Positions 30,920 to 53,575 of a stretch of 64,000 bases of DNA are shown here, one piece after another. Origin of the DNA: Pseudoxanthomonas sp. YR558. Its GTDB lineage: Bacteria > Pseudomonadota > Gammaproteobacteria > Xanthomonadales > Xanthomonadaceae. Position 1 is the first letter of the stretch. Each line of letters begins with the position of its first letter. The DNA is taken from NCBI RefSeq assembly GCF_900116385.1, contig NZ_FPCI01000002.1, forward strand, positions 806,001 to 870,000, in the 5' to 3' direction. Position numbers and translations under genes: made by a program. The notes under the pieces are model-generated. The model had not been told where the DNA came from and did no database searches. It worked only from the letters and a program-made list of their open reading frames with translations.

Positions 30920-33295
30920 TCAGAACGCCCAGCGCATGACCAACTGGTAGCTCGGGCCGGCCTCTTCGGTTTCCAGCTCGTACTCGTCGTAGTCGCGGTC
31001 GACCTGGTCCTGCAGCGTATTGAACTTGTCGAAGAACTCGTCCTTGCTCGCATCCAGCAGGTTATTGGCGCTCAGGCGCACCGACACGCTCTTGCCGAAG
31101 CGCTTTTCGACGAACACGTCCAGTTCGCCGCCGTAGCGGATCAGCACTTCCTCACCCAGCAGGCGCGTGTAAGCGTCGCCTTGCTTGCGGTAGGTCGCGC
31201 CGAAGCTGGCGCCCAGCGTCGGCAAGTCCTGGATGAAGCCGATGTTGTAGACGGACTTGGCCTGGTCGTTGAAGCGGCGCTCGCCGAGGAAGTCATCCAC
31301 CTTGGACTTCACCCACGAGTAGTTGGCGAAGACGCCGGTGTTCTCCAGCCCGATGGCGGACAGCGGCGTGGACACGTCGAATTCGAAGCCATAGACCTTG
31401 CCGTCGCCAACGTTGGAGGAGGTGTACAGCCAGCTCGATGCCGGTTCCTGCGCCATCGCATCGGCCAGGTCGACGGCGTCGCCATCCTCGATCATCTCTT
31501 CCCAGGTGTCCTGCATCTCTTCGCTGGGCTCGCCGGTGTTGACGATCTCGATGAGGTCCTTGACGTCGCGATAGAAGAAATTCAGGCCGACCACGCCTTT
31601 GCGGCCGAGGCGGTGCTCGAAGCCGAGGTCGAGGCCGTTGGCGGTCTCCGGGTCCAATTCCGGATTGCCGATGTAGTCGTTGTCGCCGAACTCGCCGTCC
31701 AGCAGGGCCGGCAGCAGTTCGTTGAAGTTCGGGCGCTTGATGGTCTTGGCCAGCGACAGGGTGATGCGGTCCGCATCGCCCAGGTTCCAGCGCAGGTTCA
31801 CCGACGGCAGCAGCTCGTTGTAATCCTTGCTGACGCGGCCTTCGCTCTCCTCGTCCTCGAGGTATTCCACCTTCGACTTCGTGGTCTCGTAGCGCAGGCC
31901 GGCTTCCCACGAGAAGGCCTCGCCCTTGCCGCTGAGCATGATGTACGGGTCCAGGCGCTTCTCCTCGATCACCGAGGCGACGCTGCCGTCGAGGTCGTAG
32001 TCCGCCAGGGAGGCGGGCGTCTGGCCATCTTCGTCGGCTTCCCATTCGTAGCTGACGACCAGGCCTTCACGCTTCTTGGTGCGGTAATCCACGCCGAACT
32101 CCAGTTCGGCGCCGCCCACCGGGCGCGCATGGGTCAGCCTGAAGCCGGTTTCGGAATCCTTGGCAGTCACGGCTTCGGCGCTGTAGACGGTCTCGTCCCA
32201 TTCTGCGTCGGCGGGAATACTCCAGGTGTCGTCCCAGTTCTCCGCACCACTGACGTAGACCTGCTCGCCCTCGGTGGTGGCCTGCGAATTCTCGAAGCGC
32301 GCATGGTCGACGCTCACGGCCGTCGTGCCGCCGGCCATGTCGAACTTGTATTCCGCGCCGATGCCGTAGTTCTTCTGGTCGTACGGGTCCAGGCCCGGCA
32401 CGCGGATGTTGATCGTCTCGTCGTCGTCCAGTTCCTCTTCGAACGACACCTCGGTGACGTCGCGATCGGTCTTGACGTAGAAACCGTCGATGCTGAAGCG
32501 GCCGTTGTCGCCGACATCCGCGGTATAGGAAAGATTGGCGGAGTAATCGCGACCATCCTTGACCTCGGTCTGGTCTTCCCAGCTGACCTTCTCTTCGCGG
32601 GTGTTGTCGGTGAAACGGTCGGAGCGCTTGGATTTCGCGCGGTACCGGTCCTGCACGTTGATACCGGCCAGCAGGCGGCCGCCCAGCGCTTCGAACGAGG
32701 TCACCGCGCCGAAGGTCGGGTTGATCTCGCCGTCGTCCCAGCGATTCACGCCGACCCGAATGTAGCTTCCGGTGAACTCATAAGCATCACGCAGCACGAT
32801 GTTGATCGCGCCGGCCATCGCATCGCCGCTGCGGTTGGCGCTGGCGCTGCGCTTGATCTCGATGTGGTCCACCATCTCCGCGGGGATGCGGTCGACATAG
32901 AACGAGCGGTCGTCGCCGGCGCCGGGCACCTTCTTGCCGTTGATCAGCACTTGGGTGTAGCCACCGCCCAGGCCGCGCAGCTGCACGCCGTCGTACTCCA
33001 TGATGTCCGAACCGACGAAGCCCACGCCCGGTACGCGCTTGAGCATGTCGCCCACGGTGTTCGGCTCGAAGCGCTGGAAGTACTCCAGGTCGTAGACCAG
33101 CGTGGGCGCGATGTCGTCGGTACGGTCGCGGTAAGCGATCTCGGCCTGCACCACCACGGTGTCGAGTTGCTTGGGATCGCCGGCCGCGCCGGCGTCCGGC
33201 GACTGGTTCTGTGCGGTGGCGGCGAGGCTGGCCGGAAGCAGGGCAGCGCAGAACAGCGCCTGCGCGAGCGAGGCGGCCAAGGCATTGCGTTTCAT
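30920..33295 (-). CDS. TonB-dependent outer-membrane receptor of the phosphorus island
   Basis: A 791-residue outer-membrane receptor. The precursor has a signal ([20 protein letters not shown] onward) and a TonB-box-like [10 protein letters not shown], then a plug ([58 protein letters not shown]) and a beta barrel ending in [10 protein letters not shown] with the terminal Phe. The barrel is acidic, with many Asp/Glu/Arg. It is divergent from phytase, phosphatase and pyrophosphatase genes, so it may import a phosphorylated compound, a released inositol/phosphate product or a complexed metal. The ligand is unknown. A Pho-box-like site precedes it. Confidence 0.92.
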
Positions 33296-33328
33296 GTGTG
33301 TCGTCCCCGTGACGAAAGTAAACGCCAC

Positions 33329-33362
33329 TTTGTAAGCGCGTCACATGGCGGAAACATGACAC
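33329..33362 (-). promoter_or_regulatory. Putative Pho box and -10 for the TonB receptor
   Basis: The minus strand reads GTGTCAT-GTTT-CCGCCAT (33362-33345), 13 of 18 positions to the PhoB box CTGTCAT-AWAW-CTGTCAY, then 10 bases, then TACAAA (33334-33329) as a -10-like hexamer. A further CTGTCAC half-site lies 22 bases upstream, in phase. The layout is that of a PhoB-activated promoter. Confidence 0.55.
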
Positions 33363-33402
33363 GTAGGTTCCCGTGCGGTGACAGGTATCCGCGTGCAGTG
33401 CG

Positions 33403-33436
33403 CTGACACGAAAATGTCATGGCGCCTGCGTAGAAC
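33403..33436 (+). promoter_or_regulatory. Putative Pho box and -10 for the phytase operon
   Basis: CTGACAC-GAAA-ATGTCAT (33403-33420) matches the PhoB box at 14 of 18 positions. Exactly 10 bases later comes TAGAAC (33431-33436), a -10-like hexamer, 40 bases before the phytase start. There is no good -35, as expected of PhoB-dependent promoters. Confidence 0.6.
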
Positions 33437-33475
33437 ATGGCAGTTTGTTGACGCCTTCATGTCATGGGGAACCCA

Positions 33476-34618
33476 GTGAAACCACGTCTTGCCCTGTTCG
33501 CTATTCCTTTCCTGCTCGTCGCTTGCGGCGGGAAGCCTGCCGCACCCGCCGTCGACACGCCGCTGCAGACACGCGAGAAAGAGCCGGACGAGCACGTAGA
33601 GAAGGATCCGTTGCTCAGCGAGGCGAAGATCGCGCATGTGGTGGTGCCGGAAGCCTTCATCACCGCCGCGACGCCGGCCGAGAACGTGGATTCGCCGGCC
33701 AGCTGGCGCGCGGCCGACGGACGTCGCCTGCTGATCGCCACTGCTAAGGACACGCACCGCTTGGTCGTTTACGACGGCAGCACGGGCAAGCAACTGCGCA
33801 CCGTTTCCGGTCCGGGTAGCGCGCTGGGGCAGATGCAGCGGCCGAACGGCATCGCCGTGATCGATGATCTGGCCTTGGTGGTCGAGCGCGACAACCGGCG
33901 CGTGCAGGTCTTCCAGCTGCCCGACTTCACGCCGTTGCTCGTGTTCGGTGCGGAAGACCTGAAGCAGCCGTATGGCCTGTGGGTACGACCGCAGAAGGAC
34001 GCGTACGAGGTGATTGTCAGCGACAACTACATGTCGCCGCAGAACGAAGACGCGCCACCGCCGCTCGCCGAACTGGGCCAGCGCTTCAAGCGTTATCACC
34101 TGCAGCGCGCCGAGGGCGGCTGGAAGGCCACACTTGCCGGTACTTTCGGCGACACCGGCGAGGCTGGCGCGATCCGTATCGCGGAGTCCGTGTTCGGCGA
34201 TGCGGCGAACGATCGCCTGTTACTCGCGGAGGAGGATGTCGCTGTTGGCACGCGCCTGCGCGAGTACAGCCTCGACGGCACCTACCGCGGTCGCGATATC
34301 GGTACCGACCTGTTCAAGGCGCAGGCCGAAGGCATGGCGCTGGCGCAATGCGCGGGCGGCACTGGCTATTGGATCGCGACCGACCAGTTCAAGGACCGCA
34401 GCGTATTCCATGTGTTCGAGCGGAAGACGCTGGCCTACAAGGGCGCGTTCGCCGGCAACAAGACGGCAAACACGGACGGCGTATGGCTGGACCAGAGCGC
34501 GGATGCACGCTTCCCGCAGGGTGCGTTCTATGCCGTCGACGACGACCAGGCGGTGGCCGCGTTCGACTGGCGCGACATCGCCAAGGCACTGTCGCTGCCG
34601 GAGTGCCGCGCCGAATGA
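33476..34618 (+). CDS. Beta-propeller phytase-like lipoprotein
   Basis: A 380-residue exported protein that looks like a beta-propeller phytase (3-phytase; removes phosphate from inositol hexakisphosphate with Ca2+). The alignment is by motif: NVDSPASWRAADGRRLLIAT, RLVVYDGSTGKQL, LLLAEEDVAVG, KAQAEGMAL, GTGYWIATDQFKDRSVFHVF and the terminal GAFYAVDDDQAVAAFDWRDI each match blade segments of Bacillus phytase in order. The lipobox is LVAC. I favour the GTG at 33476, six bases after GGGGA; an ATG at 33464 is in frame. First gene of the three-gene phosphorus operon. Confidence 0.78.
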   Translation: MKPRLALFAIPFLLVACGGKPAAPAVDTPLQTREKEPDEHVEKDPLLSEAKIAHVVVPEAFITAATPAENVDSPASWRAADGRRLLIATAKDTHRLVVYDGSTGKQLRTVSGPGSALGQMQRPNGIAVIDDLALVVERDNRRVQVFQLPDFTPLLVFGAEDLKQPYGLWVRPQKDAYEVIVSDNYMSPQNEDAPPPLAELGQRFKRYHLQRAEGGWKATLAGTFGDTGEAGAIRIAESVFGDAANDRLLLAEEDVAVGTRLREYSLDGTYRGRDIGTDLFKAQAEGMALAQCAGGTGYWIATDQFKDRSVFHVFERKTLAYKGAFAGNKTANTDGVWLDQSADARFPQGAFYAVDDDQAVAAFDWRDIAKALSLPECRAE

Positions 34619-34638
34619 AACATGCAGGGGATGCGGGG

Positions 34639-36003
34639 ATGAAGTGGGTGCTGGTCGCGCTGATGCTGGGGATCTGCGCGACAACGCTCGCGCAGGATGC
34701 GATGGCGCGCCAGCCTGAGCCGAACACACGCGTGCCGCAGGGCGTGGTGCGCTACGCGCCGAGCGGCTTCCCGGATCGCATCGTGGCCTCGCCCGCGCAG
34801 GACGCCGCCACGGGTTTCTCGGTGGCGTGGCGTACCGATGCGCGTGTCGGCACGCCCTCACTGGAGATCGTCGTCGCGGGCGATTCGCCCGACATGGGTG
34901 AGCCGCGCAGCATCGCGGCGACCAGCACGCCGCTGAAGACCGAGAATGGCGAAGCCCACCACCATCGCGCCGATGTCACCGGTCTCCAGCCGGATACGCT
35001 GTACGCCTGGCGCGTCCAGGGCGACCGCACCTGGAGCGCCTGGCACCACACGCGCACAGCGGCTGCCGCAAGCGCGCCGCTGACGCTGCTGTACTTTGGC
35101 GATACCCAGAACAAGAACGTCAGTCTCACCACCCGCGTCGTCCGCGAAGCGATGCGCGCGGCGCCGGATGCACGTCTCGCGCTGTACGCCGGCGACCTGG
35201 TCAGTGGCGGCGACGGAGAGGACGACAACGAGTGGGGCGAATGGTTCGAGGCCAACGAAGTGCTGCCGACCTCACTGGTCGTCGCGCCGGCACCGGGCAA
35301 TCACGAGTATTTCGAGGAGTTCGAGGACACCCCGCAGGAACGTCGCGTGCTGGGTGCGCACTGGCCGGTGACGTTTGCGCTGCCGGGCAATGGCGTGGCG
35401 CAGGCGAAGCGGACCACGTACTGGTTCGATTACCAGGACGTGCGCGTGGTCGTGATTGATGGCACCTCCGCCCTCGACCTCGGCACCGCGAAGGCGCAAG
35501 CGGAATGGCTGGATGGGGTATTGGCGAGCAACCCCAAGCGCTGGAGCATCGTGCTGACCCATCAGCCGTTCTTCTCGCCGCGCGAGGGGCGCGACGACGT
35601 GCTGTTGCGCCAGCACCTGCTGCCGGTGATCCGCAAGCGCAAGGTCGACCTGGTGCTGCAGGGGCACGATCACGTCTATGGTCGTTTGAAGAACGAAGCA
35701 CCGACACCGGTGTTCGTCGTGTCGGTCACCGGCGCCAAGCAGTACCGGCTTTCGGATGAAGCACGCAGGACCATGCGTCCTGTCGCCGAAGACACGCAGT
35801 TGTTCCAGGTGCTCCGCTTCGATGGTCCGCGCCTGCGCTATGAGGCGCGCACGGCGACCGGTCGTCTCTATGACGCATTCGACCTTGTCGATGGCGGCGC
35901 CGCGGGCAAACGGCTCCTCGAACATGCGGAAGGCCGCATCGAGGAACGTACCTGCACCCGCGCCGAGACCCTGAAGGGTCGCGCAGACCGGTGCTGGGAA
36001 TGA
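34639..36003 (+). CDS. Purple acid phosphatase-like metallophosphoesterase, exported
   Basis: A 454-residue secreted enzyme. After the signal (MKWVLVALMLGICATTLAQ) comes a fibronectin-like purple-acid-phosphatase N-domain (FSVAWRTDARVGTPSLEIVV ... LQPDTLYAWRVQG), then the two-metal phosphatase core: YFGDTQ, YAGDLVSGG, APGNHEYF, LTHQPFF and LQGHDHVYGR, the five standard metal-ligand blocks. It would hydrolyse phosphomonoesters outside the inner membrane. An ATG at 34615 overlaps the phytase stop (ATGA); the ATG at 34639 after GGGGATGCGGGG gives a cleaner signal peptide. Middle gene of the operon. Confidence 0.9.
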   Translation: MKWVLVALMLGICATTLAQDAMARQPEPNTRVPQGVVRYAPSGFPDRIVASPAQDAATGFSVAWRTDARVGTPSLEIVVAGDSPDMGEPRSIAATSTPLKTENGEAHHHRADVTGLQPDTLYAWRVQGDRTWSAWHHTRTAAAASAPLTLLYFGDTQNKNVSLTTRVVREAMRAAPDARLALYAGDLVSGGDGEDDNEWGEWFEANEVLPTSLVVAPAPGNHEYFEEFEDTPQERRVLGAHWPVTFALPGNGVAQAKRTTYWFDYQDVRVVVIDGTSALDLGTAKAQAEWLDGVLASNPKRWSIVLTHQPFFSPREGRDDVLLRQHLLPVIRKRKVDLVLQGHDHVYGRLKNEAPTPVFVVSVTGAKQYRLSDEARRTMRPVAEDTQLFQVLRFDGPRLRYEARTATGRLYDAFDLVDGGAAGKRLLEHAEGRIEERTCTRAETLKGRADRCWE

Positions 36004-36035
36004 ACCCTCCCTCCGACTATCCAAGGACTTTCCCC

Positions 36036-36650
36036 ATGTCGAAGCGCACGACGCCGCTGTTGCTCGCGATGGTGCTCGCCGTGTCGGCGGGTGCTGCCTT
36101 CGCCCGCGAAGCGCACATCCGCCATCCGTTCCTTGCCCAGCAGCCGAAGGCCGCGCCGGGAGAGGTGTTGCTGGCCGTGGAGATTCCCGCGGGCAGTTTC
36201 ACCAAGTACGAGATCAACGAGGAAGGCCTGGTCTTCGTGGACCGTTTCCAGTCGATGCCGGTGGCGTATCCGGCCAACTACGGTTCGATGCCGCGCACGC
36301 TGGCCGGCGACGGCGACCCGCTGGATGCGCTGGTGCTGACGCGCGAGCCCCTGCATCCCGGCGTGCTGGTGAAGTTCCGGCCGATCGGCGTGCTGCGCAT
36401 GCTCGATGACGGCAAGCACGACGAGAAGATCATCGGCGTGCCCACGGACAAGATCGACCCGACCTATGCCGGCATCCGTGACCTGTCCGACCTGCCGGAG
36501 ATCGAGCGCCAGCGCATCGAGGCCTTCTTCCGTGTCTACAAGGACCTGCCTAAGGGCCGCAATCCGGTGCAGCTCAACGGCTACGGCGATGCCAAGGAAG
36601 CGAAGGCACTGATCCAGGCCTCGCTCGATCGCTTCACCGCACAACCGTAG
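36036..36650 (+). CDS. Exported family I inorganic pyrophosphatase
   Basis: A 204-residue soluble PPase that splits pyrophosphate into two phosphates. The family I signature GDGDPLDALVL is intact, with VPTDKIDPTYAGIRDLSDLP and VYKDLPKGRNPVQLNGYG holding the remaining metal and substrate residues. Unusually, it begins with a Sec signal (MSKRTTPLLLAMVLAVSAGA, cleavage near AFA), whereas housekeeping Ppa is cytosolic. It is the third gene of the phosphorus operon, 32 bases after the phosphatase, with a CAAGGAC Shine-Dalgarno. Its TAG stop is part of a GTAG-type repeat. Confidence 0.9.
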   Translation: MSKRTTPLLLAMVLAVSAGAAFAREAHIRHPFLAQQPKAAPGEVLLAVEIPAGSFTKYEINEEGLVFVDRFQSMPVAYPANYGSMPRTLAGDGDPLDALVLTREPLHPGVLVKFRPIGVLRMLDDGKHDEKIIGVPTDKIDPTYAGIRDLSDLPEIERQRIEAFFRVYKDLPKGRNPVQLNGYGDAKEAKALIQASLDRFTAQP

Positions 36651-36710
36651 GGTGGGCCTTGGCCCACCATCCACATGCACGATCAACGGTGGGCCAAGGC
36701 CCACCCTACG
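36646..36710. repeat. GTAG-type REP pair (23-bp inverted repeat)
   Basis: Two copies of a 23-base sequence in inverted orientation (36646-36668 and 36688-36710) are separated by 19 bases. Each begins CGTAGGGTGGGCC and is itself nearly palindromic (GGTGGGCCTTGGCCCACC). The GTAG head and GC-rich palindrome fit REP elements of Stenotrophomonas and relatives, spread by REP-associated tyrosine transposases. The left copy supplies the stop codon of the pyrophosphatase gene. Confidence 0.85.
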
Positions 36711-51750: not shown

Positions 51751-51770
51751 GAGTCATGAAACGGTCATAA
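51751..51770 (+). promoter_or_regulatory. Pho-box-like site overlapping the PiT operon -10
   Basis: GAGTCAT-GAAA-CGGTCAT (51751-51768) matches the PhoB box at 14 of 18 positions, and its end overlaps CATAAT (51765-51770), the only good -10-like hexamer before the DUF47 gene. There is no -10 at the usual +10 distance, so if bound by PhoB it would more likely repress than activate. The rest of the 283-base gap (51532-51814) holds nothing else I can name. Confidence 0.45.
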
Positions 51771-51814
51771 TTCCGCCCCTGAAGCCGTCCATCCCGTGAC
51801 GGTGGGACCGCCCG

Positions 51815-52441
51815 ATGTTCTCCCTCCAGACGATCTTCGGCTCCGGCCAGCAGTTCTATACGCTGTTGGACGAGGCCGCCCAAGCTGCCCACGACAGCAC
51901 CAAGGCCCTGCACACCATGATGAAGGCCACCGACCGCCAGCCGGCGCTCGATGCCTTCAAGCTGGCGCGCCTGCGCGAGCGCGCGGCCTCGGATAAGATC
52001 GGTAAGGCATTAGTGGACAGCTTCATCACCCCGATCGAGCGCGAGGACATCGAGGCCTTGGGCTCGGCGCTGTACAAGATCCCGAAGCAGGTCGAGAAGT
52101 TCGCCGACCGCTACTCGCTGGCCATCCAACACCTGGAAGGCATCGACTTCGCGCCGCGCGCGGCGATGCTGGAGCAGGCCGCCGCCGTGGTCGTGGACAT
52201 GGTCCACGAGATCAAGAAGATGAACATCGATCGGATGACCTCGCTCAACGAGAAGCTGCGCGCGATCGAGAACGAGGCCGACCGGTTGATGCTGGAGCTG
52301 TACCGCGACATCTACTCCGGTCGCCTGGACCACCTGCAGATGTTCCTGCTGAAGGAGTTCTTCGAGATCCTGGAAAAGGCCATCGACCGCTGCCGCGAGG
52401 CCGGCGTGGTGGCGTACCAGATCGTCCTCAAGAACAGCTGA
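51815..52441 (+). CDS. DUF47 (PhoU-like) accessory protein of PiT
   Basis: A 208-residue all-helical cytosolic protein of the DUF47/YkaA family, a PhoU relative. Marks: YTLLDEAAQAAHDSTKALHT and KMNIDRMTSLNEKLRAIENEADRLM, with LFILEK-like tail (FFEILEKAIDRCREAGVVAY). It lies 12 bases before the PiT gene; this two-gene order is very widespread and DUF47 proteins are thought to modulate PiT. It is expressed together with pit, probably under phosphate control. Confidence 0.94.
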   Translation: MFSLQTIFGSGQQFYTLLDEAAQAAHDSTKALHTMMKATDRQPALDAFKLARLRERAASDKIGKALVDSFITPIEREDIEALGSALYKIPKQVEKFADRYSLAIQHLEGIDFAPRAAMLEQAAAVVVDMVHEIKKMNIDRMTSLNEKLRAIENEADRLMLELYRDIYSGRLDHLQMFLLKEFFEILEKAIDRCREAGVVAYQIVLKNS

Positions 52442-52453
52442 CGGGTCGCGCCC

Positions 52454-53575
52454 ATGCTTACCCTCGTGCTGGTGGTGATCTTCGCCGCGCTCGTCTTCGA
52501 GTTCATCAACGGCTTCCACGACACCGCCAACTCCATCGCCACGGTCGTCGCCACCAAGGTGCTGTCGCCGGGCCAGGCGGTGATGCTGGCGGCCGGCATG
52601 AACCTGATCGGTGCGCTGACCGGTACCGCGGTCGCCAAGACGATCGCCTCTGGCCTGATCGATACCAATGTGGTGCAGGTCACCTCGCAGGTAATTCTGT
52701 GCGCCCTGCTGGGCGGCATCATCTGGAACCTCATCACCTGGTGGAAAGGCCTGCCGTCCTCGTCCTCGCACGCGCTGATCGGTGGCCTGTGCGGCGCCGC
52801 GCTTGCGGCCGCGCACAACGACTGGGCCGCGCTGATCTGGTCGCAGGCGGCCGGCGACTGGACGCAGAACAAGGGCATCCTGTGGAAGGTCGTGCTGCCG
52901 ATGATCACCTCGCCAGTGGCGGGCTTCCTGCTCGGCATCGTGGTGATGGTGGCGCTGTGGGGGCTGATCGTCCTGTTCGCGCGCATCGGCGGCTGGCTGG
53001 GCCGGCTCGCGCGCCCGCACTTCGTCAACAAGTTCTTCGGCAAAGCGCAGATCCTGTCCGCCGCCTACATGGGTTATGCGCACGGCCACAACGACGCGCA
53101 GAAGACCATGGGCATCATCGCGCTGACGCTGTTCGGCGCCGAAGCGACCGGTGCGCTCGACGACCTTCCGGGGTGGCTGGCGTTCCTGCATCCCGGCAGC
53201 GCCGGCGAGCAGGACATCGCCATGTGGATCGTCATCACCTGCGCCATCGTGATGGCGCTGGGCACCGCCTCGGGCGGCTGGAAGATCATCAAGACCCTCG
53301 GTCACAAGATGGTGAAGCTGCACCCGATCAACGGCTTCGCCGCGGAGACCAGCTCGGCCACCATCCTGACCGTCGCTGCGCACTTCGGCATGCCGGTCTC
53401 GACCACGCACAGCATCTCCACTGCAATCATGGGCGTAGGCTTCGCGAAGAACCCGCGCGCACTGAAGTTCAGCGTGATCGAGCGCATCCTGTGGGCGTGG
53501 GTGTTGACGATTCCCGCTGCCGGCGGCATCGCCTACGGTCTGTTGCGTCTGCTGGAATCGATCGGCTGGGCGTGA
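52454..53575 (+). CDS. pit: Low-affinity inorganic phosphate transporter PiT
   Basis: A 373-residue inner-membrane phosphate (or metal-phosphate):H+ symporter. Both internal PiT repeats are visible: FINGFHDTANSIATVVATKV near the start and MGYAHGHNDAQKTMGIIALT in the second half, each with the GxxxxN/D site, plus SSSSHALIGGLCGAAL and VSTTHSISTAIMGVGFAKN in each half. About 10-12 spans. It follows the DUF47 gene by 12 bases and ends before a strong terminator. Confidence 0.95.
   Translation: MLTLVLVVIFAALVFEFINGFHDTANSIATVVATKVLSPGQAVMLAAGMNLIGALTGTAVAKTIASGLIDTNVVQVTSQVILCALLGGIIWNLITWWKGLPSSSSHALIGGLCGAALAAAHNDWAALIWSQAAGDWTQNKGILWKVVLPMITSPVAGFLLGIVVMVALWGLIVLFARIGGWLGRLARPHFVNKFFGKAQILSAAYMGYAHGHNDAQKTMGIIALTLFGAEATGALDDLPGWLAFLHPGSAGEQDIAMWIVITCAIVMALGTASGGWKIIKTLGHKMVKLHPINGFAAETSSATILTVAAHFGMPVSTTHSISTAIMGVGFAKNPRALKFSVIERILWAWVLTIPAAGGIAYGLLRLLESIGWA

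Follow-up and report, generated by a model that had tools for sequence, protein, structure and literature searches.

A putative PhoB-controlled phosphorus-scavenging cluster in Pseudoxanthomonas that combines a TonB receptor, a phytase-like propeller lipoprotein, a metallophosphatase, and an exported-type pyrophosphatase

What is the purpose of a TonB-dependent outer-membrane receptor encoded back to back with three proteins of phosphate-releasing families, one of them a pyrophosphatase apparently destined for export? The question is posed by four genes at positions 30920–36650 of a 64,000-nucleotide stretch of the Pseudoxanthomonas sp. YR558 genome (hereafter the window; contig NZ_FPCI01000002.1, positions 806,001 to 870,000). 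A first-pass annotation had described the receptor gene as divergent from three consecutive plus-strand genes, and strands and order are as described. The answer that we favor is that the locus probably serves, under the control of PhoB, to scavenge phosphorus at the outer membrane and in the periplasm. The genes, their conservation, a predicted fold, signal-like N termini, and box-like sites are observed; from these we infer the activities, substrates, localization, and regulation.

The receptor gene (30920–33295, minus strand; 791 amino acids from an ATG at 33295) encodes plug (PF07715, 56.6 bits) and barrel (PF00593, 119.2 bits) domains. On the plus strand lie phyL (33464–34618, 384 amino acids), for a lipoprotein with a phytase-type propeller; a gene for a purple-acid-phosphatase-like exported metallophosphatase (34615–36003, 462 amino acids); and one for an exported-type family I inorganic pyrophosphatase (PPase; 36036–36650, 204 amino acids). 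Translation of phyL may begin at the ATG at 33464, adopted here, or at the in-frame GTG at 33476, the sequence favoring neither. Its stop shares an ATGA (34615–34618) with the phosphatase start and a gap of 32 nucleotides separates the phosphatase and PPase genes, an operon-like arrangement.

A genome scan yielded 67 phyL loci from Pseudoxanthomonas, Lysobacter, Xanthomonas, Stenotrophomonas, Luteimonas, Arenimonas, Tahibacter, and gammaproteobacterial bins, the closest of which (L001–L006) encode propeller proteins 91–94% identical to that of the window. A TonB gene adjoins phyL in 61 of them, bearing out the association between phytase-like genes and TonB receptors on which the first-pass annotation drew. 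It is orthologous to the receptor of the window and divergent from phyL in 29 loci, with one further copy truncated where its contig stops (L025) and another co-directional (L058). In 30 others, from Xanthomonas, Stenotrophomonas, and their relatives, a distant TonB gene (approximately 25% identity to the receptor of the window; the L041 copy was confirmed by Pfam at 148.7 bits) lies directly upstream of phyL in the same direction. The six loci without one comprise two that end near contig ends (L055 and L064), two with other neighbors (L061 and L062), L063, and L060, in which phyL adjoins a gene that by eye is prfC-like. The same is true of a PhyL paralogue encoded elsewhere in the host genome (C2:627122-628123; L158:5108-6199), which adjoins an M23-peptidase-like gene and prfC and has no TonB match nearby.

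Wherever a phosphatase match (43 of 67 loci, some partial) or a PPase match (14 of 67) was found, it lay downstream of phyL on the same strand. The gene order, whose conservation in relatives was proposed at first pass as a check, is kept in part of the family; all four genes, with a divergent receptor, are present in 10 of the 67 loci, including L049 with a partial PPase match. The gene content of these loci indicates that the core of the cluster is TonB plus phyL, with the phosphatase and PPase as accessory members. At the usual PPase position in the Xanthomonas locus L018 (12750–13514), there is a DXD glycosyltransferase-like gene (PF04488), and L015 and L016 appear alike by eye; in loci of this type, the receptor is the distant one, encoded in the same direction as phyL.

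In a survey of 99 genomes sampled evenly across the Xanthomonadaceae, phyL or a paralogue was present in 75, with further paralogue matches (approximately 44–53%) in many; the phosphatase was found in 21, the exported-type PPase in 19 (matches of at least 62% identity, plus one broken copy in G093), and some PPase in 97. Neighbor counts were taken over 26 phyL rows, covering the 24 genomes with the phosphatase or the exported-type PPase, plus two. All 21 phosphatase genes lie within 2.5 kb of phyL (19) or the PPase gene (16), and 18 of the 19 exported-type PPase genes adjoin phyL (16) or the phosphatase gene (16). The remaining one, in G063 (C11:1254000-1262000, L159), adjoins neither, both being missing there, and is instead divergent from a TonB orthologue 87% identical to that of the window, across an interval holding a Pho-type site (score 21.9). 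Elsewhere, the G063 genome has a strong PF02333 phytase, with two matches that share a frame. In two genomes, G057 and G065, phyL is missing beside the phosphatase and PPase genes, and a different TonB gene accompanies them. Judged by gene content, therefore, the TonB receptor is the common member of the loci examined, accompanied by enzymes in varied sets. This recurrence provides the strongest argument for a joint function, and the conservation of the gene set argues against a chance grouping. Two of the surveyed matches are broken: the phosphatase match of G092 (C303) is split into two pieces with stop codons and the PPase match of G093 (C16) into two pieces, in apparent decay of the accessory members.

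The Pho-type character proposed for the cluster is supported, at the sequence level, by sites between the divergent genes and by a PhoB in the genome (372.5 bits; cut-off 296.2). Scored over 18 positions against the Escherichia coli Pho consensus, the interval 33296–33463 contains one 14/18 site (33403, plus strand) and two 13/18 sites (33345 and 33437, minus strand); among 1000 dinucleotide shuffles of the interval, 14/18 was reached by none and 13/18 by 26. Because the E. coli consensus alone is not to be relied on, a matrix was derived from 20 oprO promoters of the family, these being the loci, out of 29, with a forward box of at least 12/18 (a thirtieth locus, L157, the weakest, was left out). 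A score of 12 on either strand was attained by 23 of the 29 oprO upstream stretches and by 81 of 580 random 180-base segments, which came from the same loci, promoters included. The two top-scoring sites of the window both fall within the TonB-phyL interval: GTGTCATGTTTCCGCCAT (33345–33362, minus strand, score 21.5), which faces the TonB gene, and CTGACACGAAAATGTCAT (33403–33420, plus strand, score 17.7), which faces phyL. The third best (15.7, at 51751) precedes a two-gene set by 46 bases, site and genes together occupying 51751–53575. The set encodes a 208-amino acid protein, for which Pfam gave nothing at 1e-5, and a phosphate transporter of the PHO4 family (306 bits).

In all 29 divergent loci, the interval contains an exceptional Pho-type site: no more than 0.7% of windows of the same length from the locus equal it, and in 28 of the 29 none does. 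Upstream of the TonB gene in the 30 co-directional loci, there is a site at a near-constant position. The loci in these counts are related and hence not independent of one another. Boxes similar to those of the cluster are found at the host pst/oprO locus, where oprO adjoins the pst genes. In this locus (L120, C2:955000-968000), the genes for two PstS-like proteins are in tandem with one for an OprO/P porin, each preceded by Pho-type boxes, and a divergent M28 peptidase gene shares the upstream region of the porin gene. Two further approaches were set aside: a genome-wide count of the Pho consensus (214, versus 140 for the reversed pattern) was rejected as too weak alone, and a simple sigma-70 scan of the cluster region, which returned no promoter, was dropped as evidence. 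The cluster is apparently under phosphate-starvation control.

The profiles named at first pass for the three enzymes (PF02333, the purple-acid-phosphatase N-domain, and PF00719) all match, PF02333 weakly. The PPase, described at first pass as a family I enzyme with a Sec signal, matches PF00719 at 164.7 bits; the nearest NCBIfam equivalog model gives 173.8, below its cut-off of 200. The blocks VEIP, KYE, DR, YPANYG, DGDPLD, DxxxxDxK, and YK, which we take to be catalytic, are all present. Bacterial family I PPases are usually cytoplasmic housekeeping proteins, and members of the family located outside the cytoplasm occur in eukaryotes (acidocalcisomal entries). All 20 cluster-type homologues listed (a set that includes the truncated L049) begin with a signal-like hydrophobic stretch, of mean hydrophobicity 1.9 to 3.5, and 19 have an AxA-like site. 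The latter is uninformative alone because a second host PPase (C1:1670567) has one as well; its N-terminal hydrophobicity is 1.4, and, lacking a comparable N terminus, it is likely the cytoplasmic housekeeping enzyme. A strict pattern of block spacing is matched by 16 of the 20 homologues and missed by L019, L041, L049, and L164, which says little, as the second host PPase misses it too. At the PPase stop (36647–36709), there is a perfect 22-base inverted repeat, GTAGGGTGGGCCTTGGCCCACC, with 35 genome matches at up to two mismatches against none for a reversed control; by its sequence and its matches, it is a REP-like dispersed element.

The phosphatase matches Pur_ac_phosph_N (PF16656, 57.5 bits; cut-off 30) and Metallophos (PF00149, 57.4 bits; cut-off 21.5). 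It was said to retain all metal-ligand blocks, and five blocks, whose roles we assume to be those of purple acid phosphatases, are indeed present, at residues 162, 193, 228, 313, and 350. Their ligand residues are kept except for one: the GDxxY block reads GDLVS, and alignment to 1xzw places Ser at the position of the Tyr ligand.

The propeller protein was called a phytase-like lipoprotein at first pass. PhyL matches PF02333 at 26.6 bits in an hmmscan of the protein (cut-off 21); the match is partial, covering profile positions 206–334 of 375. The protein has a lipobox-like LLVAC with Cys21 and is probably located at the outer membrane. Its predicted fold is a phytase-type propeller, of which 291 residues superpose on Bacillus β-propeller phytases with an rmsd (root mean square deviation) of 2.3, at 23–24% identity to 1poo, 3amr, and 1qlg. 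In an alignment of 40 sequences, that of the window and those from 39 of the 67 loci, K76, R122, Y159, E211, E227, E260, and D314, presumably phosphate-binding and acidic residues of phytases, are identical throughout.

How might these components work together? Under phosphate starvation, PhoB would act on the intergenic boxes, and expression would follow in both directions. The TonB receptor may then carry a phosphorus compound, or its product, across the outer membrane, and PhyL and the metallophosphatase would dephosphorylate organic esters of phosphate. Pyrophosphate that is released outside the inner membrane, or that enters there by a route such as the OprO-type porin encoded at the pst locus, would be split by the exported PPase, and the orthophosphate liberated would be taken up by Pst. 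OprO of Pseudomonas aeruginosa is described, in the available text of PMC4768671, as binding pyrophosphates with higher affinity than orthophosphates; were the host porin to share this property, it might offer pyrophosphate a way in. The conserved divergent unit, export signals, Pho-type sites, and TonB link all support the scavenging pathway envisaged at first pass. Not supported in the form given there are the identity of PhyL as a phytase and the completeness of the phosphatase metal-ligand blocks, which lack the tyrosine.

Several observations weigh against this interpretation. The phosphatase was not found in 78, nor the exported-type PPase in 80, of the 99 family genomes, so that the full pathway is not general. 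The co-directional Pho-type sites are weaker, with 20 of 30 reaching 0.01, and these are close relatives. A PF02333 search of the whole host genome returned no match, phyL included, despite the hmmscan result. In all 40 aligned sequences, PhyL has Ser at D56 and Gln at D258 and a gap at D308, the loop of which is absent; these three acidic positions are invariant across five true phytases. With three acidic positions changed or lost, PhyL is not shown by its sequence to be a phytase. Proteins named “phytase” in the Xanthomonadaceae, among the 120 matches listed, would then belong to a group of propellers whose metal site is altered.

The altered acidic metal positions invite the proposal that PhyL has no enzymatic role and instead captures substrate for the TonB receptor, as the lipoproteins SusD and BtuG do for theirs, leaving only the phosphatase and PPase catalytic. 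PhyL is lipoprotein-like and has a TonB gene as its neighbor in 61 of 67 loci, which would fit such a role, and a BtuG propeller is among its lower Foldseek matches (8ptd, rank 46). We regard this alternative as possible but unlikely. Equally tentative is a more specific proposal, in which PhyL, rather than being a phytase, is a separate kind of propeller phosphohydrolase whose metal site has been rebuilt, and the cluster serves substrates from which phosphate as well as pyrophosphate is set free outside the inner membrane (e.g. inositol pyrophosphates or other phosphoanhydrides); the TonB receptor would import the compound, and the exported PPase would complete its breakdown.

Well-studied TonB receptors often transport siderophores or heme, and models of such receptors are among the NCBIfam matches of the window receptor, all below cut-off. 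It could therefore be argued that the receptor serves iron or another metal held by phytate-like chelators, the enzymes freeing the metal with phosphorus as a by-product; however, the sites found in the 29 divergent loci are Pho-type (the scan covered Pho-type sites only) and it is not evident what an exported PPase would contribute to the uptake of iron. We consider this very improbable. Least credible of all is that the four genes are neighbors with no shared function, as the patchiness of the set and the glycosyltransferase-like gene found at the PPase position in L018 (by Pfam) and in L015 and L016 (by eye) might suggest. Against it, such clusters house every one of the 21 phosphatase genes and all but one of the 19 genes for the exported-type PPase, and they occur with two distantly related TonB receptors.

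The phosphorus-scavenging unit that we favor has relatives among described systems, and the first-pass statement that no such system was known is too strong. According to the available text of PMC8115612, Flavobacterium johnsoniae has a pair, Fjoh_1367/Fjoh_1368, of phytase and TonB-dependent transporter (TBDT) that is induced by phosphate depletion, and PUS clusters that combine TBDT, lipoprotein, and phosphatases. The likeness lies in a PF02333 protein beside a TBDT, that of F. johnsoniae being at the outer membrane; the differences are that the organism belongs to another phylum, that “pyrophosphat-” words are absent from the main text of the paper, that the PUS lipoproteins are SusD-like, and that the host propeller has altered metal positions. 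Pfam assigned no SusD family to any protein of the cluster. In Citromicrobium, a TBDT gene adjoins a phytase gene, with phytic acid the proposed substrate (PMC3400609); the resemblance is confined to this neighborhood, the available text mentioning neither phosphatase nor PPase. A literature search for phytase with TonB in Xanthomonas found no description of the four-gene cluster, which is likewise not described in the available text of PMC9414882, PMC5439949, or PMC4768671 (the words “phytase” and “TonB” being absent from that of the latter two). In open-licence papers, a search of titles and abstract openings for exported or periplasmic pyrophosphatases found no fit, and no receptor/phosphatase unit that includes an exported family I PPase turned up in the searches, which took in text of PMC9414882, PMC11208175, and PMC8115612. 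A search for the numbering of the phytase active site was unproductive.

The Bacillus β-propeller phytases (1poo, 3amr, and 1qlg) share with PhyL the fold, most phosphate-binding residues, and several acidic ones; PhyL differs in being a lipoprotein, in the replacement of D56, N100, and D258, in the absence of the D308 loop, and in a 16-residue insertion near K179. In Caulobacter crescentus, the PhoB regulon takes in TonB receptors and, among enzymes, a phytase, phosphatases, and a pyrophosphatase acting on nucleotides, in the available text of PMC11208175; what is described there is a regulon rather than the present gene cluster, and the nucleotide pyrophosphatase is not a family I PPase. The general idea is therefore known, and it is the combination of a receptor with three exported proteins of phosphate-releasing families, the exported PPase included, that looks new. 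If our interpretation is correct, the phosphate-controlled TonB uptake of organic phosphorus seen in Flavobacterium and Caulobacter would extend to the Xanthomonas family, and pyrophosphate would, through the exported PPase, join the phosphorus sources of the cluster.
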